In this document: positions 7,405-39,451 of the stretch, in pieces | Position numbering within the stretch: the first letter of the stretch is position 1 | How the letters are laid out: every line of letters begins with the position of its first letter | Origin: Chthonomonadaceae bacterium | GTDB lineage: Bacteria; Armatimonadota; Chthonomonadetes; Chthonomonadales; Chthonomonadaceae | NCBI GenBank assembly: GCA_027459665.1 | Contig: DAIDHN010000010.1 | Span: 1-64,000 of the forward strand | DNA: 64,000 bases | Reading direction: 5' to 3' | Notes under the pieces: generated by a model | The model's input: the letters and a program-made list of their open reading frames with translations, nothing else | Databases searched by the model: none | Told to the model about the DNA's origin: nothing | Translations under genes and position numbers: made by a program

Positions 7405-8634
7405 ATGCTTCTGGCTACCGTAGAGCAGGCGCTGCAGCGTATACTTGAGCGCTCATACAAACTTGAAGCGGAAGAGATAGAGCTTGCCGAGGCCGCAGGC
7501 AGAACGCTTGCCGAGGATATTGCCGCAGACATTCCCATTCCTCCTTTTACCAATTCTGCGGTAGATGGGTACGCTGTATTATCTGCAGACACAAGGCATG
7601 CCACTTCTCAGCAGCCCGTTGTCCTAAAGATTTTGGAAGAAGTTTCAGCAGGCAGCCTTCCAACACAAACAGTGCGTTCGGGATACGCAACACGGGTATT
7701 GACAGGAGCTCCCTTACCTGCGGGTGCTGATGCTATGGTGATGCAGGAAGATACGGAGCGGGCAGCAGGAATTGTACGCATACTTGCCACTGCCACTGCT
7801 GGGCAGCATATTCGCTTTGCAGGGGAAGATGTATCGGCAGGCGAAGTGGTTTTGACCAGAGGCACAGTATTGCGTCCGTATGAGATTGGCATGCTTGCTA
7901 CATTGGGAGGCAGTGTTTTTAAGGCAGTGCGAAGACCGCGGTTGGCGCTTTTTTCTACCGGGGATGAAGTGATTGAGCCATTGCGCGGCGTTGTTCCGCC
8001 AACTGGCAAAATAAGAAACAGCAATTTGCCTGTGCTAGAGGCGCTTACCCTGGAAAGCGGGTCACAAATTCATACTGCCAAGCATTTACCAGATGATTTG
8101 TTTCAGATAGAGGCTGCGCTTTTGGAGTGCTGCGGCGGGGTAGATGCAGCAGATGTAATAGTTGCAGCAGGCGGGGTTTCTGTGGGTGACAGGGATTTCG
8201 TAAAGCCCGCACTGGAACGAATTGGGAAGATGGAGTTGTGGAAGATTGCAATGAAACCGGGCAAACCACTTGCTTTTGGGAGCATTGGCAAAACGCTTTT
8301 TCTAGGTTTGCCTGGCAACCCTGTTTCTGTGATGGTTACCTGGGAATTGTTTGTTCGACCTCTAGTCTGTGATTTGATGGGCAGAAATGACTACCGGCGG
8401 CTTGAGGCTGAGGTTGTTTTGCAGCAGGACATTATGCACAGGCCAGGCAGAAGAGAGTATATACGCGCTCATATCAGCCAGGGAGAATCGGACTTGACCG
8501 CGGAAGTTACCGGCAATCAGGGTTCTGGAAATGTGCGCTCCATGCTTCATGCCAATGCACTTCTTGTTATACCGGAAGATGCAGGGGCGTTGAAAGCCGG
8601 CAGCAGAGTGAAAGCGCTCTTGATTCAAAATTGA
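7405..8634 (+). CDS. moeA: Molybdopterin molybdenumtransferase MoeA
   Basis: MoeA inserts molybdate into adenylylated molybdopterin, the last common step of molybdenum cofactor synthesis. The 409-residue length is normal. Motifs seen are TNSAVDGYAV near the N-terminus, TGAPLPAGADAMVMQED, the FSTGDEV motif, NSNLPVLEAL, and the GGVSVGDRDFVKPAL plus PGKPLAFG and GLPGNPVSVMV segments of the MPT-binding domain. ATG 7405 is preferred over 7390 because AGGAG sits 6 bases upstream of it. No other cofactor-synthesis gene is nearby, so the gene appears isolated. A strong hairpin follows the stop codon. Confidence 0.96.
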   Translation: MLLATVEQALQRILERSYKLEAEEIELAEAAGRTLAEDIAADIPIPPFTNSAVDGYAVLSADTRHATSQQPVVLKILEEVSAGSLPTQTVRSGYATRVLTGAPLPAGADAMVMQEDTERAAGIVRILATATAGQHIRFAGEDVSAGEVVLTRGTVLRPYEIGMLATLGGSVFKAVRRPRLALFSTGDEVIEPLRGVVPPTGKIRNSNLPVLEALTLESGSQIHTAKHLPDDLFQIEAALLECCGGVDAADVIVAAGGVSVGDRDFVKPALERIGKMELWKIAMKPGKPLAFGSIGKTLFLGLPGNPVSVMVTWELFVRPLVCDLMGRNDYRRLEAEVVLQQDIMHRPGRREYIRAHISQGESDLTAEVTGNQGSGNVRSMLHANALLVIPEDAGALKAGSRVKALLIQN

Positions 8635-29032: not shown

Positions 29033-31075
29033 CTATTGTGCATGACGCAGCACAAGCGAGGCGAGGTTGATGGGAGACCAGTTTTGAGGGTCGGCTGGCC
29101 TTACTGTAACAGTAAGATCGCCGGCAGCATCAATATGAAGTGTGCCGCAGTCTATAGACTGGTAGGTGTTCCATGCACCTGTGTTTACCGCCTGCGCTGT
29201 TACACTGCTGTTTGCAGCACTTACAATGAAGGCTGGTGGATTGGCTGTGCAGGAGACCCGGGCTTCTACTTTCCATGCGCCAGTCTGCGTGACAGAGGCA
29301 TGCCAGACCGCGTAGCCTTTTGCGCTGTCCCAAAACCCAATATCCTGAGTTCCATTGACTTCGGTTTGCAGTCCTCCATGCAGTTCGGCCTCATTGGGGG
29401 TAAGGTTCAGAACTCCGTTTGCCTCTGTTACCGGCGGCAGGGGGGGCATGACAGGCTTTGACTGAGAAGCATTCAGACCTTCTATCTTCACCACCCATGC
29501 ATAGTCGCAGGGAGGGTTTTGGGGAAGTGTGATCTCCAACCCTTCAGGCGTTCTGCGGAAGTCTACCTTGCGGGGGCTTCCCAGCAGAGTAACCTTGCGA
29601 ATGTTCCCCACGATGCCTGGTGCATTGGAGGCGAGTGAGCGAATGAGCAGTTTGCGGTCTGCCGGCCAGCCGAAAGTTGCCGCATACAAAGTATTGCCTT
29701 TTGTGGTGAATCGAAAGTCTTTGTGTGTAAGCGTATCATTGCCGCTGTCGTTGCCGGGAAGCCCTGAGCCTTCTCCGTAAATTCCCCATGGCCTGGTATC
29801 GTGAATAGCTTCACTATTCACCTGCATCCAGTCTGTAAAGCCTTGCAGAAAGAGGAACTCATCCGGGTCGGGCGATCCATCTCCCTTGAGCGGGATATTG
29901 AGCATAAGGTTGCCGTTTTTGCTTACTATATCCAGCAGCATTCTGGCTACCTGAAAGGGTGTTTTGTATCGATGATTTTCGTACAGCGAAAGCTGGTAGT
30001 GCCAGTTGCCAATGCAGGTATCTGTCTGCCACGGCAGAGCTTCAATGCCCTGCGTACGACCCCGTTCATGGTCTTCAACCATCGACATTCTCTGCTGGTC
30101 GTTCAGCCCTTTTCCATTGAGCACCACATTTACCCTGCCATCGCGCTTTACGCTCTGGTTATAGTAGTATGCTGCAATTTTGAGACCTATATCGCTTACG
30201 GGGTAAAAGGGGAGTACAGTATCATCGAAATAGAGCACATCAGGGTGATATTTGTCTATTAGGTCAACGACCCTGTTGTAGAATTTTGTGAGGTATGCCT
30301 GATCAGGCTTTACGCAGTGAGGGTCTGTAAATTCCCATGAAAAAGCGCCAGGTTTGTGGTTTTGCGCATACAGCTGCACATTTGGGTTGAGGCCCTGCCA
30401 CCACAACCCGCTGCCGTTGGCTTCGGTCATTACCCCATCGTATGGAATGCCCTTGTACGGCCCTTTTGTGTCTGCACCCTGTGCCACCTCAAACCAGTTC
30501 CAGGCATGTGAGGCATGAACAGAAACCCCGAATTTTAGCCCTGCGTCTCTTGCTGCTTTTGCCCATGTTCCTACAATATTTTTCATGGGGCCAATTTTTG
30601 TAGAGTTCCAGGGCTGGTAGTCGCTGTCCCAGCAGTCAAAATTATCGTGATGATTTGCCAGTGCAAAAAAGTACCTCGCCCCCGCTGCCTTGTAGAGAGA
30701 AATCAGTTTTTCAGGTTCCCATGCATCTGTTTTCCAGATATGGTCAATGTCTTTGAAGCCGAATTTAGAGGGGTGCCCATAATGCTTCACATGGTATTCA
30801 TACTGCTCGCTGCCTTCCTGATACATACCTCTTGCGTACCAGTCACCCTGCTCTGGAACGCACTGTGCACTCCAGTGTGCCCAGATGCCGAACTTTGCGT
30901 TTCTAAACCACTCGGGGCACTTATAGTTTTGCAGAGAATCCCAGTTAGGCTGAAATGGTCCATCCATGTCGGGGCGTTTTGCGGCTGAGGCAGTCTGTGC
31001 TGCTGTGGGAAGCAGGGTGAAGCCTGCTGCAGCTGCAGCACTTTTGCGCAAAAATTTTCTACGTGAAAGCAACAT
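29033..31075 (-). CDS. Secreted alpha-L-fucosidase, GH29
   Basis: A 680-residue enzyme exported by the Tat route: SRRKFLRKSA then a hydrophobic stretch at the N-terminus. The GH29 catalytic domain spans about residues 45-440, with KFGIWAHW, ANHHDNFDCWDS and VLYFDDTVLPF, where Asp284 is the probable nucleophile. The C-terminal 200 residues form beta-rich domains that may bind carbohydrate. AGGAG lies 6 bases before the ATG. It is a single gene. A second, signal-less GH29 at 50242-51540 suggests one outside and one inside enzyme. Confidence 0.93.
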   Translation of the reverse strand: MLLSRRKFLRKSAAAAAGFTLLPTAAQTASAAKRPDMDGPFQPNWDSLQNYKCPEWFRNAKFGIWAHWSAQCVPEQGDWYARGMYQEGSEQYEYHVKHYGHPSKFGFKDIDHIWKTDAWEPEKLISLYKAAGARYFFALANHHDNFDCWDSDYQPWNSTKIGPMKNIVGTWAKAARDAGLKFGVSVHASHAWNWFEVAQGADTKGPYKGIPYDGVMTEANGSGLWWQGLNPNVQLYAQNHKPGAFSWEFTDPHCVKPDQAYLTKFYNRVVDLIDKYHPDVLYFDDTVLPFYPVSDIGLKIAAYYYNQSVKRDGRVNVVLNGKGLNDQQRMSMVEDHERGRTQGIEALPWQTDTCIGNWHYQLSLYENHRYKTPFQVARMLLDIVSKNGNLMLNIPLKGDGSPDPDEFLFLQGFTDWMQVNSEAIHDTRPWGIYGEGSGLPGNDSGNDTLTHKDFRFTTKGNTLYAATFGWPADRKLLIRSLASNAPGIVGNIRKVTLLGSPRKVDFRRTPEGLEITLPQNPPCDYAWVVKIEGLNASQSKPVMPPLPPVTEANGVLNLTPNEAELHGGLQTEVNGTQDIGFWDSAKGYAVWHASVTQTGAWKVEARVSCTANPPAFIVSAANSSVTAQAVNTGAWNTYQSIDCGTLHIDAAGDLTVTVRPADPQNWSPINLASLVLRHAQ

Positions 31076-31318
31076 GACATACTCCTAAATCTAGTTCTAT
31101 ATGAACGGCAACCTGTAATAGAGAAAAATTCAATGGGCATGCAGAGTATTCCTGCCTAAGATTGCGCTAAGTTAATTTGAGATACCGTTTCTTGGTGTAG
31201 TAACGGCTTTTTTGTATGCTCTACGAATATGTTAAGGTTTGCGAACCAACTGTATGTGTATAACAGATGACAGAGATGCTATTTATGTCATAATTTGGGG
31301 TGTTGGAAAGGTGGAGAG

Positions 31319-32677
31319 ATGAGCATATTCAATGGCAGCCGCCTGCCTTTGCACACGTTCAAACTAGATGTAGAGCGAATGCGAAAAGGGTGGTACTCAG
31401 ATAAGTATTTTTACAACACTGTAGAAGTGCTGCGAACCCTGGCAAACAGAGGGTATCGGTACAGTAATCAGCATGTGCAGAAAGACGGCAGCTTAGCAGG
31501 AATATCTATTGGTGATATCGAAGTAGAGATGCAGTGGTTTACGCGCCGCAAGCCTTATTCTGTTGTTGCTGGGGTAGACAAGGCGCTGGCTATACTGCAG
31601 ACATGCACCGGCTTTTATCGTGAAGACGGGCTGTGGGAAGATACCTACAGCAACTTTGAGGTAGAGGCAGTGCATGACGGGGTTATTGTGAACTATGATT
31701 CTGACCCGATGCATGTGCAGCCTGTATTGAGAGTGCGCGGCTGCTATCGAGATTTCGCCATGCTCGAAACCCCTACCCTGGGAGCGCTTACACGGGGTAC
31801 GCGAATAGCTACCAATGTTTATAAGGTAATGGAAGCAGCACAGGGCAAAGACGTGCTTTATTTTCCTGCTCGATTTGATGCACATGAATTGCAGGCCGCC
31901 GATGGATATGCCTACCATATAGCAGTGCAGGCTTACAATCAGCGCAGGGGGCGCAAAGCCGGCACCCATGTTTCTACCGACGAACAGGGAGACTGGTGGG
32001 GCGGCGCAGGCGGCGGAACAGTGGCGCATGCAGCCATAGCCTGTTTTCTGGGTGATACCGCAGAGACCATGATGTGCTTTGCCGATGTGCTGCCCCCGGC
32101 AGTGCCCCGCATTGCACTGGTGGATTTTCATAACGACTGTATTGCAGACACCCTTCAAACCATGCGGCGCATGTTTGACCGCTACCGGCAGCTGCTGGAA
32201 GACGGACAGGAAGCGGAAGCTATGCGCTACAAACTCTATGGTGTACGGCCTGATACCGGCGGGTTGATGCGGGATGTGAGTTTGGAGCCATTGGGAGACC
32301 CCCGCCTTGACAATGGAGTGAACCCCAGACTCTGTTTTCGTTTGAGAGCAGCTATGGATGACGCCTGGAAAAACTGGGGGCTGCCGCTGGCATGGCAGGA
32401 GCACGCCGAGAACTGGTGCCGCGGCGTTAAGCTGGTGGTAACAGGTGGATTTACTCCCGAACGCATACGCAGTTTTGAACAGATGGGGGTGCCTGTAGAT
32501 GTATACGGAGTGGGCTCTGCTCTGCTCTCGAACTGTTCTGAGCATGGCACTGCCAACGATTTTACTGCCGATATAGTTCGTGTCAAGATAGACGGAGAAT
32601 GGGTTTCTATGTCGAAGGTTGGGCGTACTGCCTGCGATAACCCTGATTTACAGCCTGCCGAGAGACTGATGGAATAG
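31319..32677 (+). CDS. Nicotinate phosphoribosyltransferase family protein
   Basis: A 452-residue protein with the C-terminal core of nicotinate phosphoribosyltransferase: VDFHNDC, the phosphate-binding region with RPDTGGLMRDVSL, then VTGGFTPERIRSFEQMGVPVDVYGVGS. The family makes nicotinate mononucleotide from nicotinate and PRPP in NAD salvage. The N-terminal half also fits, but its company (an unrecognised protein and a ComB phosphatase, in one operon) is odd for NAD salvage, so a different substrate is possible. ATG 31319 is chosen because GGTGGAGAG lies just before it; an in-frame TTG at 31295 is less likely. Confidence 0.85.
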   Translation: MSIFNGSRLPLHTFKLDVERMRKGWYSDKYFYNTVEVLRTLANRGYRYSNQHVQKDGSLAGISIGDIEVEMQWFTRRKPYSVVAGVDKALAILQTCTGFYREDGLWEDTYSNFEVEAVHDGVIVNYDSDPMHVQPVLRVRGCYRDFAMLETPTLGALTRGTRIATNVYKVMEAAQGKDVLYFPARFDAHELQAADGYAYHIAVQAYNQRRGRKAGTHVSTDEQGDWWGGAGGGTVAHAAIACFLGDTAETMMCFADVLPPAVPRIALVDFHNDCIADTLQTMRRMFDRYRQLLEDGQEAEAMRYKLYGVRPDTGGLMRDVSLEPLGDPRLDNGVNPRLCFRLRAAMDDAWKNWGLPLAWQEHAENWCRGVKLVVTGGFTPERIRSFEQMGVPVDVYGVGSALLSNCSEHGTANDFTADIVRVKIDGEWVSMSKVGRTACDNPDLQPAERLME

Positions 32678-32694
32678 TTAAGGAGCATAGAGCG

Positions 32695-33345
32695 ATGATA
32701 CAAGTGAGCAGCGAAACACTGCAGAATGTGAAGCATAGCTGGCGTTTGGCAAAACCATTTATCACTCCTGTGAAGAGTGTTCAGCGCGATGGAGTACATT
32801 ATAGGCTGTGGGTTTCCTCTTACAAACTTCCTGCACTCATCACCCTGCCTCCACGCCCTGTCAGGCTGGCGGCTGTGGCGCCTGTGGCTCCTGATTTGAA
32901 AATGGTATTTGGCGCAGCTAAACTGGTGCGCGATTTGGGGGCAGACAGAGTGCAGTATGAAGCCATGTTGGCATCTCCTCTTTTGCCGGGGGCGGCATTT
33001 GCAGGCACAGGTGCGCGCTACAAGTTTGCGAAAACCATGTTGGCGGTGATACTGGATGAGTACAAACAGCTGGTGCCGTCTGCCATGGGGCGTTCGCTGA
33101 GAAAATGCGCCGAGCTTGCACGCCAGTCTGATTGTACCGGTTTGATTGTGCCTGACTTTACTGCAAACCTGATTGTTCAGCCCAACTGGTTAACTGAACA
33201 GCAGCGTAAAGAAACCGCTGAGCAGACAGCGCTGCTCACGCTGGAGGCGCTGAAAGGCTGCAAGGGCTTGATTGAACAGGTGGAACTGTGGTGCTGGGAA
33301 CCAGAAAACGCCTTTGCATGGCAGCGTGAGCTGGAACGCATATAA
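32695..33345 (+). CDS. Unrecognised protein in the NAPRT-ComB operon
   Basis: A soluble 216-residue protein without signal peptide. Conserved-looking blocks are VAPVAPDLKMVFGAAKLVRD, PLLPGAAFAGTGARYKFAK and GLIVPDFTANLIV. I do not recognise the family. The arrangement of glycine/proline-rich turns between short strands and helices suggests an alpha/beta enzyme or binding fold. It starts 17 bases after the phosphoribosyltransferase homologue and its stop overlaps the comB start (TAATG), so the three are made together. Confidence 0.75.
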   Translation: MIQVSSETLQNVKHSWRLAKPFITPVKSVQRDGVHYRLWVSSYKLPALITLPPRPVRLAAVAPVAPDLKMVFGAAKLVRDLGADRVQYEAMLASPLLPGAAFAGTGARYKFAKTMLAVILDEYKQLVPSAMGRSLRKCAELARQSDCTGLIVPDFTANLIVQPNWLTEQQRKETAEQTALLTLEALKGCKGLIEQVELWCWEPENAFAWQRELERI

Positions 33346-34103
33346 TGCACAACACGGCACTTCGGGTGGCATTTCTACCCGAACAGGTGATAAATGCAGG
33401 CAATTCAGTGTGTATTGTGCTGGATGTACTGCGTGCCACAACCTGCATGGCAGTACTTTTTTCACGCAGGTGCCCGCGTATTTACGCATCTGATTCTCAT
33501 GAAAAAGCACGCGCCTTTGCTCGGCCAAGGGGGTTTGCTCTTTGCGGTGAGGTGGGAGGATTGCGCGTAGAAGGATTTGATTTTGGTAATTCTCCCGTAG
33601 AATTCACCAGCAATGACTTTTTAGGAAAACCTGTAACACTTTCCACCACAAACGGCACCAAAGCGATTGCCCGTATATCTGAGGCACCCTGCGTGCTAGC
33701 GGGAGCGGCTGTAAATATGCAGGCGGCAGCAACTGCGGCATGGATGGCTGCCCAGGAAACCGACAGGGATATTACCCTGGTGTGCAGTGGTACAGATGAA
33801 TACTTTACACTGGAAGATGCAGTGGTGGCAGGTATGTATGTAGAGCGTTTGCAGAGTTTTTCGTCGGTACAGCAGCCAGTTACCATCACCGATTCGGCAC
33901 TTGCTGCCATGCGTCTTGCCGCATCACCCAGTGGTTTGCTGCGCAATATAATGGAGGGGTATCATGCCCAAAAGCTATGTGATTTGGGTTTTGGTGCTGA
34001 TGTGGAGTACTGTGCGCAGGTTGACATTCTACATAATGCACCCGTGCTTGTAACAGAGCGATATGCCGACCAGGTAGAAGCGCCTCTGCTGCTTGCCGTA
34101 TAG
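33345..34103 (+). CDS. comB: ComB-type 2-phosphosulfolactate phosphatase
   Basis: ComB removes phosphate from 2-phosphosulfolactate, a step in coenzyme M synthesis in methanogens. Bacterial homologues are widespread but their role is often unclear. This 252-residue protein has the family blocks VLDVLRATTCMAVLFSRR near the N-terminus, ALCGEVGGLRVEGFDFGNSP, LSTTNGTKAI and LVCSGTDEYFTLEDAVVAG. Its start overlaps the upstream stop by one base. No other sulfolactate or coenzyme M gene is present, so the actual substrate is uncertain. It ends 2 bases before the convergent permease gene. Confidence 0.88.
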   Translation: MHNTALRVAFLPEQVINAGNSVCIVLDVLRATTCMAVLFSRRCPRIYASDSHEKARAFARPRGFALCGEVGGLRVEGFDFGNSPVEFTSNDFLGKPVTLSTTNGTKAIARISEAPCVLAGAAVNMQAAATAAWMAAQETDRDITLVCSGTDEYFTLEDAVVAGMYVERLQSFSSVQQPVTITDSALAAMRLAASPSGLLRNIMEGYHAQKLCDLGFGADVEYCAQVDILHNAPVLVTERYADQVEAPLLLAV

Positions 34104-34105
34104 CA

Positions 34106-35107
34106 TTATATTGTTTTGTAATTTCTTCTTCCCGGGCCAAACCGGTCATACAATACAGCAAGAATAATTACCGTGCCAATAATCATCTCTTGCAGCTCAG
34201 GGCCGTATCCTTTCAATTCGCAGCCATTGCGTATGGTGAAAATAAGCAGCGCTCCAATCAGCGCACCCGGAATGCCTCCCTGCCCTCCAAACAGTGAAGT
34301 GCCGCCCAGTACAGTGGCGGCAATAGAATCGAGTTCATAGCCAATCCCGGCATCCTTTGAGGCCACCCCGGCTCTGGCGACGCTGACAATGGCTGCTACC
34401 CCTGCCATGAGGCCAGACAGCATGAATATAAGAACCGTGAGATTTTTCACCTTGATGCCTGAAAGCCGCGTAGCTTCGGGATTGCTGCCCATTGCATACA
34501 GCGATCTTCCCACCACTGTTCTGGAGAGAAATATGTGTACAACAATGGCAGCTACTGCAAGCACCAGTACTGCATAGGGAATGCCGTCTCGCGTTGCGCT
34601 GCCAAAAAGTTCTCCATATCCAAATACAGATAACCTGGCTGGAGCTTGTATGTCTACAGAATGAGACAGCACGCCAGCCGCTCCATGTACTATGCTGAGT
34701 GCACCCAGGGTTACTATGAAAGAGGGGATGCCTCCCCATGCTGTTACCAGCCCGTTCAGCAGGCCGCACCCTGCCCCTGCCAAACATGAAAGCAGTATGA
34801 GCAGCGGGATAGGAAGAGGGTGGTGTATCGCTGCCAGTGAGATGACAATGCCGCAGAAGGCCATGATAGCGCCAACAGAAAGATCGATGTTTGCGGTGAT
34901 GATGACAATAGTTTGACCGCAAGCCAGTATGGCTACCACGGCAGCCTGTATTGCAATTTGTTTCAGATTGTCTCTTGTAGCAAAGTGTGGGGCTACTCTC
35001 CAAAGCACAAGATCGAGCAGAAGAAGGAAAGACAGAGGCGCTATGATTCCTGAAAATTTCGATAAGAGGTATTTTAGGGAAATGCGGCTGGGATTGGCAG
35101 AGATCAA
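34106..35107 (-). CDS. CUT2-type sugar ABC transporter permease
   Basis: A 333-residue inner-membrane permease of the RbsC type, with about ten helices. Diagnostic stretches are TANIDLSVGAIMAF, GIPSFIVTLGALSIVHGAA, YAMGSNPEATRLSGIKV and ATVLGGTSLFGGQGG. The frame extends to 35242 but the true start is most likely TTG at 35105-35107, because AGGAG stands 6 bases upstream and the added residues are not like the family. It has its own strong promoter. It should partner with the ATPase at 13603-15105, as no other candidate is in the window, but that pairing is inferred. Confidence 0.9.
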   Translation of the reverse strand: MISANPSRISLKYLLSKFSGIIAPLSFLLLLDLVLWRVAPHFATRDNLKQIAIQAAVVAILACGQTIVIITANIDLSVGAIMAFCGIVISLAAIHHPLPIPLLILLSCLAGAGCGLLNGLVTAWGGIPSFIVTLGALSIVHGAAGVLSHSVDIQAPARLSVFGYGELFGSATRDGIPYAVLVLAVAAIVVHIFLSRTVVGRSLYAMGSNPEATRLSGIKVKNLTVLIFMLSGLMAGVAAIVSVARAGVASKDAGIGYELDSIAATVLGGTSLFGGQGGIPGALIGALLIFTIRNGCELKGYGPELQEMIIGTVIILAVLYDRFGPGRRNYKTI

Positions 35108-35135
35108 ATTAAGCTCCTGACTTGTTATATTTCTA

Positions 35136-35164
35136 ATTATACAGAGGGATGCCTCGGAAGTCAA
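35136..35164 (-). promoter_or_regulatory. Near-consensus promoter of the sugar permease
   Basis: On the minus strand, TTGACT (complement of 35159-35164) is followed after exactly 17 bases by TATAAT (complement of 35136-35141). Transcription would start about 20 bases before the TTG start codon. This is the best sigma-70-type promoter in the window. Confidence 0.8.
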
Positions 35165-35276
35165 TTGGAAAAGAGAGTAATTCTGCAGCAATGGGCAGGT
35201 AAATGCTGCTTCGAAGAGGAAATGGTAGCAGAAATGCAGCAACTATGTACATTCGTTCATCAACAGGAGCCTGCGA

Positions 35277-37226
35277 ATGCGTTCGATACTCTCATCTTTT
35301 ACATCATGTTTACTTATAGCGTGCTGCATGCCGGCATTTGCATTGCATCTTACTCCGTATCCTGTGCATATAACCAGAGAAAACGGAATATTTACTTTAA
35401 ACAAAAACACCAGCATTTATCTAAATACAAAAGATGCTGAGGCAGTTGGCCGTCTGCTTGCAAAGCGTTTGCGGCTGGTTACGGGGTATGCGCTGCCATT
35501 TACACGTTACAAAAAGAAGAACGAGATTGCGCTGCAACTGAGCAGCAAATGTTCTGTTGCATACCCTGAAGGCTATCTTCTGTCTGTAGAGCCTGCTGGC
35601 ATACAAATAGAAGCGCAAAAGCCTGCTGGTCTGTTTTATGGAATTGATACTCTGTATCAGCTTTTACCGGTATCTGTTATGAGCAGTACTGCACAGCATA
35701 AAACACACTGGCAGGTAAGATGCGTGCGTATTGCCGACTGGCCGCGCTTTTCATGGCGCGGCCTCATGCTGGATTCTGCCAGACACCTGCAGAGCGTGCA
35801 GTTTATCAGGCAGACTATAAGACGCATGGCCTACTACAAACTGAATACTCTTCACTGGCACTTGTCGGATGGGCAGGGATGGCGTTTACAACTCAATGGC
35901 TATCCTGCACTCACCAGCACAGGAGCCTGGCGAATTGATAATGGAAAACGCTATGGCGGTTTTTACACCGAAAGTGAAGTTAGAGAACTTACCGCCTATG
36001 CAAAAGCCCGGTTTATTCGCATTATTCCAGAGATAGATATGCCGGCACACTGCCAGGCTCTGCTGGCCTCCTATCCACAGCTGGGGTGCACATCGGGTCC
36101 TTTTCATGTTCTCAGCCTGGCTCCTTCAGAGGGAACAGATGATGTGATTGATCCTGCAAAAGCATCTACCTACCAGCTTCTGGAAGGGATACTGACCAAG
36201 CTGATGCGCCTTTTTCCCTCGCACATACTGCACATTGGAGGTGATGAGTGCCCTGTGTCTCAGTGGCAGGAAGCGCCAGACTGTCTGGCGCTTATGAAGC
36301 GCAAGGGAATGACAAACCCGTATCAGCTTGAAAACTATTTTGCAAACAAACTTGCTGCATTTTTACAGCAGAATGGCTGGCAGATGGAGGGATGGAACGA
36401 ATTGCTCTATACTGGGCCGCTGCCGCAGGGAGTAATTGTACAGCAGTGGAATAGCCCCGATGCAGCGGTGCAGGCTATACAGCAGGGACATGCAGTTGTT
36501 TCCTCACTCACCCACTATGCCTATTTTGACTACAGTTACGACACCACTACACTTGGACGCGTATATCGTTTCAATCCGATGCCGGCGGGCCTATCTCCCA
36601 AACAGAAAAAACTGCTTCTTGGCCCAGAAGCCTGCCTGTGGACAGAAACCAAGCCTACCGATTCTGTTGCAGACAGTTTTATATGGCCCAGACTGCTGGC
36701 GATTGCAGAAGCAGGCTGGACGCCGCAGGCAGAAAAGAACTGGAAGCGTTTTGTAAAAAGCCTCACTGCCTCACAGTATGCACGTTTGGCCCTAATGGGG
36801 GTAGACGCTCCCAGGGGGGTGGAGGAACTGCTGGCCGACAGCAATTTTACGCCGCATGTTACAGTGGCCCAGTGGCTGCCTGCACAGATGTCGGAAAAGT
36901 GGGAAACACTTACCTGGAATATCACTGCCAGCATTCATAAAAGCGGCAGATATAGAATGCATCTAACCTATACACAGGGCGGAGACGGTATACATATAAA
37001 GAGCGTTGAACTGCGGCAGAATGGCCAGCGCATTAGTATAGATCAGCACGCCGGCTGGGCTGGCGACGTTTCACACAGCAACGACTATATCATCAACATC
37101 CCTGCCTATCAGCCGGGGGAGCAGTACACCCTGAGCGTGCAGCTGCGCTGCGACGGCGGGGTGGATTCGCAGGGCAAGCTGGTAATGTACGGGCCAGACC
37201 CTGCAGTGAAGGGGGAGACTGGATAG
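35277..37226 (+). CDS. Secreted beta-N-acetylhexosaminidase, GH20
   Basis: A 649-residue exported enzyme that removes terminal N-acetylglucosamine or N-acetylgalactosamine. A Sec signal peptide ends near residue 22 (MPAFALHL). A GH20b-type domain precedes the catalytic barrel, which has GLMLDSARHLQS, YKLNTLHWHLSDGQGWR, IPEIDMPAH and the catalytic pair in HIGGDECP (Asp323, Glu324). A C-terminal beta-sandwich follows from about residue 530. AGGAG lies 7 bases before the ATG. It is probably transcribed alone. Likely substrates are chitin-derived or peptidoglycan- or glycoprotein-derived oligosaccharides. Confidence 0.95.
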   Translation: MRSILSSFTSCLLIACCMPAFALHLTPYPVHITRENGIFTLNKNTSIYLNTKDAEAVGRLLAKRLRLVTGYALPFTRYKKKNEIALQLSSKCSVAYPEGYLLSVEPAGIQIEAQKPAGLFYGIDTLYQLLPVSVMSSTAQHKTHWQVRCVRIADWPRFSWRGLMLDSARHLQSVQFIRQTIRRMAYYKLNTLHWHLSDGQGWRLQLNGYPALTSTGAWRIDNGKRYGGFYTESEVRELTAYAKARFIRIIPEIDMPAHCQALLASYPQLGCTSGPFHVLSLAPSEGTDDVIDPAKASTYQLLEGILTKLMRLFPSHILHIGGDECPVSQWQEAPDCLALMKRKGMTNPYQLENYFANKLAAFLQQNGWQMEGWNELLYTGPLPQGVIVQQWNSPDAAVQAIQQGHAVVSSLTHYAYFDYSYDTTTLGRVYRFNPMPAGLSPKQKKLLLGPEACLWTETKPTDSVADSFIWPRLLAIAEAGWTPQAEKNWKRFVKSLTASQYARLALMGVDAPRGVEELLADSNFTPHVTVAQWLPAQMSEKWETLTWNITASIHKSGRYRMHLTYTQGGDGIHIKSVELRQNGQRISIDQHAGWAGDVSHSNDYIINIPAYQPGEQYTLSVQLRCDGGVDSQGKLVMYGPDPAVKGETG

Positions 37227-37252: not shown

Positions 37253-39451
37253 TCAGCGTTTTGCCGGCACAGGGTCTGCATAAAGTATGCCTCTGCCGTT
37301 GGTTCCCAGATAGACTCTGCCAAAGATGCGAGGATCACCTGTGACTGCTTCTCCAATCCAGCCATACTGGTGCATGTCGTCGTTGATGCGCACTACAGTC
37401 TTCCCATTGTCGGTACTGCGAAAAACGCCTTCCACACCTTCTACGGTGCCTGTGAAGTAGATGGCAGGAACATTCTGCCCTGGAGCGGCCTTGCCGAAAC
37501 CAAGATTTGAGCAGGATTGAATGCTGTTGATGTGCACTATCTTTTCATTGAAGATATGATACAAGCCACTCTTCTCTGAAGCAAACCAGAGGCTGCCTGC
37601 TGCATCTGGCGCAGCAAACAACTTGCCTCGTTCAACCGGCAGGGCAATCCTTTCTGGTATGAAGTGTCTACCACCGTCTCTGCTTACGAACAGCCTGCCT
37701 CCCGATGCACAGTAGAAAGTAGCTGCTGTAGAGCGATCGGACACAGGTACGGCGAATGCTGGTATGCCGGAACAAGGTGTCCATGTTTTTCCATTATTGT
37801 TTGAGCAGGCGGGAGCTGCCCCCTGTGCTGCCCACACAATCCAGTGTCCGTGTGCAGAGAGCGCGATTTTGCCTCCTCCGCGTGTTCCTGCCGGATTGGA
37901 TGGAAATGGCGACCATGTTGTACCGCCGTTATCTGAAACAGCACCGCACTGCCCTGGCGCTCCATTGCCTGAGCGCACGATGATTTGGGAAGCCATTGCA
38001 GCAAAATCAAGCGAGGTAGTAGTGTTGAAGAGAGGATGCATGAACATGCCTGCTCTGGGAGAGCGCTGCAGGTCATTGTGCCTGAAGCCGCCAATATCAC
38101 CGAGGGCGCTCAGCAAGTGCGCTCCTTCTGGCGGGCTGATCAGATCGAGTACGGCAGTTTCTTCAATCCCTCTTGCTCCCACCTGCCACTGAACTGCACC
38201 CCCAGTGTCTGCGTTTGCGATGTCGTTGGTTTCCCAGATGGTAGCGCCGGTACCGTAGAGAACATGACCGGGGAAAAAGGGGTCTATTTCCAGTGTGCCT
38301 ATCCACCAGCCTGGTCGCGGTTGAGCTGCCCCCCATTTCAGATAGGGAGAGAGTGAGGGGTTGAAACTGGAGAGTGGAAATACAGCCTTCCAGTGGCCGC
38401 CCTCGTCTGTACTGCGAAAAATTTGGTCTCCCCCAGACCAGTGGTCGAGGGTTGATACCATAACGATGGCAGGAGTTCGCGCATCTACGCTTAGCCCTGC
38501 AAAACCGGACTGCGCTGCACCGCTCTGGAAGACTGGAGTGATGTTTTTCCAGTGCCCGTTGTGCGTATTGTAGCGCCATACCGCACCGCTCGTTACTCCG
38601 TTTGGGCCTTCTGCGCTGCCGTAAGTAATATAAAGAATACCGCTTGCAGACAGCACTCCATGCTGGGGGAGCAGACCTTTGGGCTGCCCGGAAACCGTGC
38701 TCCAGGTTTTTCCGGCATCTGTAGAGCGATACAGGTTGAAACCTGTATCTTCAACGCCAACATAAATGGTGGCAGAAGCTTTGCCTGGAGTTCCAGTAGA
38801 GAGATCAAACACCTCCCAGCCAATGCCATCATTTGGGCCGTGCTGGTTAAGTGGCGTATGAATACCCTCTGCTGGAAAAGAACTTACCTTATGCCATGTA
38901 ACTGCACGGTCTGTGCTTTTCCAGAGACCGTCGCTGCGCGAGCCAAAATAGAGAATGTGTGTATTGTTAGGGTCTACGACCAGTCTTTCTCCAATAGAGC
39001 GCCCATTTTCATTGCCACCCATTGGGAAGGGCATTTGCGTCAGTTTCCAGGTACGCCCCTGGTTGTCTGACCGTGCTATCACTCCATTGCCTGCATTCAT
39101 ATAAGTGCCAAGAGCAGCATAAACTCTGTTTGGGTTTTGTGGATCGGGCGCCAGGCTCTCTACGCCTCTCAGGTTGCCGTTAGCCTCGCCAACCCAGTCG
39201 GTAAGCGGTATCCATTGTTTTTTCAGATAGTCCCATCTATAAGGTCCACCGATGTCTGTACGGCAGTAAATAAGATGAGGGTCGGCAGGGCTGAATTCTA
39301 TCCCTGAAACGAATCCGCCGGCCACAATGGCAACGCTTTGCCATTGATACGGCACAGAAGCGGGGGGTGCAGCTATGGCAGGCAGGAGAGTGAGCAGGCT
39401 AAAAGCGGCAATCGAAACGGTTCGACTAACCAATGTAAGACAGGGTTGCAT
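37253..39451 (-). CDS. Secreted GH74-type xyloglucanase
   Basis: A 732-residue exported protein with a signal peptide (about residues 1-28) and two stacked seven-bladed propeller domains built from Asp-box repeats (SxDxGxTW type, e.g. RSTDAGKTWS). The GH74 signature GGFVSGIEFSPADPHLIYCR, given here in part as GGFVSGIEFSP, leads to RTDIGGPYRWD, with Asp66 a likely catalytic residue. LTDW and GVESLAPDPQNP also match. GH74 enzymes cut the glucan backbone of xyloglucan, which fits the xylose and fucose enzymes nearby. AGGAGG stands close to the ATG. Confidence 0.9.
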   Translation of the reverse strand: MQPCLTLVSRTVSIAAFSLLTLLPAIAAPPASVPYQWQSVAIVAGGFVSGIEFSPADPHLIYCRTDIGGPYRWDYLKKQWIPLTDWVGEANGNLRGVESLAPDPQNPNRVYAALGTYMNAGNGVIARSDNQGRTWKLTQMPFPMGGNENGRSIGERLVVDPNNTHILYFGSRSDGLWKSTDRAVTWHKVSSFPAEGIHTPLNQHGPNDGIGWEVFDLSTGTPGKASATIYVGVEDTGFNLYRSTDAGKTWSTVSGQPKGLLPQHGVLSASGILYITYGSAEGPNGVTSGAVWRYNTHNGHWKNITPVFQSGAAQSGFAGLSVDARTPAIVMVSTLDHWSGGDQIFRSTDEGGHWKAVFPLSSFNPSLSPYLKWGAAQPRPGWWIGTLEIDPFFPGHVLYGTGATIWETNDIANADTGGAVQWQVGARGIEETAVLDLISPPEGAHLLSALGDIGGFRHNDLQRSPRAGMFMHPLFNTTTSLDFAAMASQIIVRSGNGAPGQCGAVSDNGGTTWSPFPSNPAGTRGGGKIALSAHGHWIVWAAQGAAPACSNNNGKTWTPCSGIPAFAVPVSDRSTAATFYCASGGRLFVSRDGGRHFIPERIALPVERGKLFAAPDAAGSLWFASEKSGLYHIFNEKIVHINSIQSCSNLGFGKAAPGQNVPAIYFTGTVEGVEGVFRSTDNGKTVVRINDDMHQYGWIGEAVTGDPRIFGRVYLGTNGRGILYADPVPAKR

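Follow-up and report, generated by a model that had tools for sequence, protein, structure and literature searches.

A divergent macro domain protein encoded between nicotinate phosphoribosyltransferase and ComB-family phosphatase genes in a Chthonomonadaceae bacterium

Three consecutive plus-strand genes of a Chthonomonadaceae bacterium most likely constitute a conserved housekeeping operon that recycles vitamin B3 into NAD. They are located in a 64,000-nt stretch of DNA, hereafter called the window, which belongs to a 3.67 Mb draft genome. The identities of the three parts, namely a nicotinate phosphoribosyltransferase (NAPRT/PncB), a macro-fold protein, and a ComB-family phosphatase, are close to certain. 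The best explanation overall, in which we place somewhat less than even confidence, is a housekeeping salvage operon that combines NAPRT, a macro protein binding a salvage ligand, and the ComB-family phosphatase. Each part comes from a known family, and what is new is a divergent macro subfamily within a salvage operon. No description of this gene set was found in the literature covered, most subscription journals being outside its scope.

The NAPRT gene (31319-32677, 452 aa) is separated by 17 nt from the middle gene (32695-33345, 216 aa), which overlaps the ComB-like gene (33345-34103, 252 aa) by 1 nt within TAATG. This arrangement of open frames agrees with the first-pass annotation, whose names for the outer genes, NAPRT-like and ComB-like, also proved correct at the family level by Pfam, NCBIfam, and PDB profile searches. 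The three ORFs are real genes, since uninterrupted homologues occur in dozens of genomes. Shine-Dalgarno-like stretches were found at the NAPRT gene (GGAGAG) and the middle gene (AAGGAG). A promoter and terminator scan yielded one extended -10-like site upstream of NAPRT (31267-31294), which is a weak and the sole hint at a common transcript. An Rfam search of the whole window gave no matches, and control by an NAD riboswitch or another riboswitch was rejected. The operon is flanked by genes for a GH29 fucosidase with a Tat-like leader (29033-31075, minus strand), a GH20 hexosaminidase (35277-37226, plus strand), and a BNR/sortilin-type repeat protein (37253-39451, minus strand). A ribose-type ABC permease gene (34106-35242, minus strand) faces the operon, and such a permease adjoins ComB in relatives of genus g2 too (L034, L035).

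The middle protein had been reported as unplaceable, and on its own it indeed gave no match in Pfam. Its score against the NCBIfam ADP-ribose-binding model (E 0.12) is insignificant by itself and agrees with the macro assignment obtained later. When a 28-member family profile was used, PDB macrodomains were matched (2dx6, E 2.9e-9; PARP14 macro, E 6e-6), so that the protein could be placed after all. Pfam Macro (PF01661) was matched at E<=1 by 22 of the 28 middle-gene relatives, the best at 1.8e-14, and orthologues from G002, G009, G013, G020, G025, and other genomes were above the curated Macro cut-off in genome searches. The AlphaFold2 model of the middle protein had a pLDDT of 91.7 and a pTM of 0.86, and Foldseek aligned it with macrodomains at TM-scores of about 0.6-0.67 by query and 0.7-0.79 by target. 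Foldseek's highest-ranked matches, SPX entries 7d3y and 5iit, were set aside: 5iit is listed as a Vtc4-macroH2A fusion (crystallisation carrier), and 7d3y is presumably a similar fusion. The family profile and the predicted structure assign the middle protein to the macro domain superfamily as a divergent member. The profile and structure searches proposed in the first-pass annotation thus returned macrodomains, and the idea of a pathway running through an unknown middle gene is not upheld. No other macro domain above threshold was found in the window genome.

Several relatives of the middle protein carry additional N-terminal elements. Five of them (L037, L041, L043, L044, L045) carry, ahead of the macro fold, a lipobox-like motif and then a hydrophobic helix, which suggests membrane-anchored macro domains. 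A hydrophobic N-terminal helix was present in six further relatives, and L046 (5381-6868) encodes a 496-aa protein that combines an N-terminal membrane segment with two tandem domains, the divergent macro domain and another macro-like one. The window's own macro protein has no clear membrane segment and no lipobox-like anchor.

Alignment with canonical macro domains revealed that both ADP-ribose-binding loops are replaced in the middle protein. Residues 62-80 (32878-32934, plus strand), which form loop β3-α1 and the start of the next helix, read APVAPDLKMVFGAAKLVRD instead of NAAN...GGGGVD, and residues 153-160 (33151-33174, plus strand) in loop β6-α4 read PDFTANLI instead of CSISTGIY. APVA occupies the NAAN stretch, MVFGA the glycine-rich GGGGV, and alanine the position of the catalytic aspartate, and the replaced residues include both NAAN asparagines as well as the glycine and tyrosine of loop β6-α4. 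The MacroD-like signature (NAAN plus GGGGV loop, catalytic Asp, and SxG(V/I)Y at β6-α4) is therefore absent from the window protein. In Oceanobacillus OiMacroD, the residues at the equivalent positions (N30, G37, D40, S130, G132, V133, and Y134) bind or process ADP-ribose (PMC5413906). Since both loops with their key residues are replaced, the reading of the middle protein as a canonical ADP-ribose hydrolase was rejected. The replacement loops are themselves strongly conserved as PVxPDLKM and PDxTxNL. At least 23 of the 25 members compared at the level of the order share D67, L68, M70, G73, K76, R79, D80, Q87, D121, D154, and Q162, and D154 in loop β6-α4 is invariant across the family alignments. 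Since the new loop residues are conserved, the macro site of this family appears to have been repurposed instead of decayed.

An alternative that we consider unlikely, though with a substantial chance, is that the middle protein still processes ADP-ribose, O-acetyl-ADP-ribose, or Appr-1''-P by means of different residues and thereby feeds or protects the NAD cycle. Replacement of the NAAN asparagines, the GGGGV loop, the catalytic Asp, and the β6-α4 glycine and tyrosine argues against this, whereas the macro fold itself and the lack of another above-threshold macro domain in the window genome are in its favor. It also gains from L066, a locus of another Armatimonadota family and one such case, where a canonical macro gene (NAAN..GGGGV, 7425-8075) lies directly upstream of a NAPRT gene of the same clade as that of the window.

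The three genes were counted in a census of 201 genomes of the phylum Armatimonadota, and coordinates and gaps were recorded to assess linkage. The window's family f1 (17 genomes) has the middle gene in 16 genomes, ComB in 17, and NAPRT in 8, and the sister family f3 (12 genomes) has the middle gene in 11, NAPRT in 4, and ComB in none. In each of the 12 NAPRT-bearing genomes of the two families, the middle gene immediately follows NAPRT in the same orientation, with a gap of 6-56 nt in 10 of them. The macro gene directly precedes ComB in 12 of 16 f1 genomes (gaps -23 to 63); the exceptions are three genomes of genus g4, in which the two genes are on different contigs, and G001, in which both are at contig ends. 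The earlier proposal that the genes form a conserved unit is borne out by these figures. The sister family f3 has the NAPRT-macro pair and no ComB. The flanks of the trio vary by genome (fucosidase, Rrf2 regulator, recR, cmk-plsC-upp) while the NAPRT-macro pair is kept. The grouping of the trio is more than chance, because relatives whose flanking genes differ have it too. In two further families, f2 and f6, NAPRT and the macro gene lie apart from each other, which counts against the favored reading. No independent re-formation of the pair was seen outside one order, and the linkage could partly reflect common descent within that order.

NAPRT is lacking from 8 of the 16 f1 genomes and 7 of the 11 f3 genomes that carry the macro gene; G014 is included in this count only because the contig of its incomplete assembly begins at the macro gene. 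In six NAPRT-less genomes the macro gene directly follows the gene for uracil phosphoribosyltransferase (Upp) with a gap of 26-150, and in one more, 4.7 kb lies between the two. In five f3 genomes it directly follows a nucleoside:H+ symporter gene with a gap of 68-122. At L053-L056 and L058, the gene immediately before the divergent macro gene encodes the symporter (PF03825), and in several of these a Spo0M-like gene is found on the other side. Since the macro gene is retained without NAPRT and then follows Upp or the symporter, its tie is to nucleobase and nucleoside salvage in general. These results bear on continued ADP-ribose processing in two ways: the constant adjacency of NAPRT and macro in the 12 genomes having both is in its favor, whereas retention of the macro gene where NAPRT is missing is against it.

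It is also conceivable that the gene order is only inherited from an ancestral cmk-plsC-upp-NAPRT-macro-ComB housekeeping string, with no functional tie among macro, NAPRT, and ComB. Housekeeping strings normally mix functions, cmk-plsC-upp is found upstream in many members of the family, and macro and ComB are on different contigs in genus g4. Two findings count against it: the NAPRT-macro pair stays constant while its flanks change, and the macro gene without NAPRT lies beside other salvage genes, Upp or, in the other family, the nucleoside symporter. We regard this explanation as rather improbable.

The product of gene 1 matched PRK07188 of NCBIfam (E 1.6e-57) under the model's cut-off and scored under the NCBIfam equivalog cut-offs, and Pfam QRPTase_N was marginally above its cut-off. 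A 15-sequence profile matched solved NAPRTs over the catalytic domain (2i14, E 3e-19; T. acidophilum NAPRT 1ytd, E 5e-9). The NAPRT motifs for nicotinate and PRPP are FxxR, GTxxH, LVD, RxD(S/T), GG, and GVG. FPAR, GTxxH, LVD, VRxDT, GG, and YGVGS are invariant in the alignment of the 15 sequences, including R185, G233, T234, H237, L267, V268, D269, R310, D312, T313, G376, G377, G397, V398, and G399. The clade is common to Armatimonadota and many Chloroflexota. Among relatives from both phyla outside the window's family, its neighbors encode NAD synthase, NUDIX proteins, nicotinamidase-like hydrolases of the isochorismatase type, or, once (L066), the canonical macro domain described above; the NAD-salvage neighbors are not found in the window itself. 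By motifs and context gene 1 is a NAPRT, with predicted catalysis on nicotinate and PRPP. Since nadA for de novo NAD synthesis is present in the window genome (30 of 31 genomes in total), NAPRT represents salvage beside de novo synthesis. The first-pass annotation had suggested a pathway covered by neither the NAPRT nor the ComB name; the contexts of NAPRT elsewhere point instead to ordinary NAD salvage.

ComB enzymes take various 2-phospho-hydroxyacids. The gene 3 product matched PF04029, the 2-phosphosulfolactate phosphatase family, over its full length (E 2.4e-61) as well as PDB entries 2yyv, 1vr0, and 2z0j (E 7e-25 to 5e-28), and retains the motifs DVLRATT, CGE, GNSPxE, TTNGT, CxGT, and LED, and it is under every NCBIfam ComB equivalog cut-off. 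ComA (PF02679, phosphosulfolactate synthase) was not detected in any of 31 genomes, the window's and its 30 nearest relatives, in searches with positive controls. Since ComA is absent from these genomes, coenzyme M synthesis was rejected as the purpose of gene 3, which accords with the earlier suspicion that the ComB name does not describe its actual role. In a context survey, comB was moderately conserved near cyanobacterial petRP (PMC9252766), which fits a role broader than coenzyme M. ComB homologues in such bacteria should accordingly not be annotated as coenzyme M genes. That the trio makes up a dedicated route for the biosynthesis of a nicotinate- or phosphohydroxyacid-derived compound, along the lines first supposed, is very unlikely despite the tight gaps with likely translational coupling and the NAPRT-macro-ComB order repeated in the family, because the parts are found separately, ComB is missing from sister families with NAPRT-macro, NAPRT occurs in NAD-salvage contexts elsewhere, and no other conserved biosynthetic genes were found around the trio.

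In the salvage operon that we favor, NAPRT would make nicotinate mononucleotide from nicotinate and PRPP as part of Preiss-Handler NAD salvage, which would run in parallel with de novo synthesis by NadA. The protein with the macro fold would bind a small (phospho)ribosyl metabolite from nucleobase or nucleoside salvage and would not hydrolyze ADP-ribose. Its most likely role would be that of a sensor or adaptor serving the enzymes and transporters of salvage, namely NAPRT, Upp, and the nucleoside symporter, and in several relatives it would be membrane-anchored. The weakest link in this mechanism is the one that leads from gene linkage to a sensor function, and an enzyme with new chemistry is possible. 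ComB would have a housekeeping function and not one in coenzyme M synthesis, dephosphorylating a 2-phospho-hydroxyacid or another small phosphate of a similar kind. The wider proposal, that the Chthonomonadales macro subfamily swapped ADP-ribose for another ligand and serves as an often membrane-tethered sensor or adaptor of nucleobase, nucleoside, and NAD salvage that couples transporters with phosphoribosyltransferases, is doubtful at present. Macro domains are treated as ADP-ribose readers or erasers; if the proposal is true, a subfamily that keeps the fold and has swapped loops, near salvage enzymes and nucleoside transporters, would offer a handle on other macro ligands.

The window NAPRT shares the superfamily and the core motifs of the catalytic half with archaeal-type NAPRTs (2i14, 1ytd, PRK07188), whereas it is longer (452 aa versus 358-398 in the solved ones), matches them only partially, and falls into a separate clade with Chloroflexota. 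Gene 3 shares a full-length match and conserved motifs with the ComB family (PF04029; 1vr0, 2yyv, 2z0j), although its context differs from that of coenzyme M ComB in that the window genome and its 30 relatives are without ComA. The nearest solved structure to the middle protein is T. thermophilus TTHA0132 (2dx6), with which it shares the fold and overall alignment. Compared with the PF01661 superfamily, the middle family has a different conserved set in place of the ADP-ribose loops and catalytic residues, and some members look membrane-anchored or lipoprotein-like. Phage NAD-salvage neighborhoods (NadV/NadM with ADP-ribose-processing domains such as NADAR, PMC9503650) likewise pair a phosphoribosyltransferase of salvage with a domain of the ADP-ribose type. 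Unlike these, the window operon shows no sign of a conflict system, is chromosomal, and combines a nicotinate rather than a nicotinamide enzyme with a degenerate macro domain.
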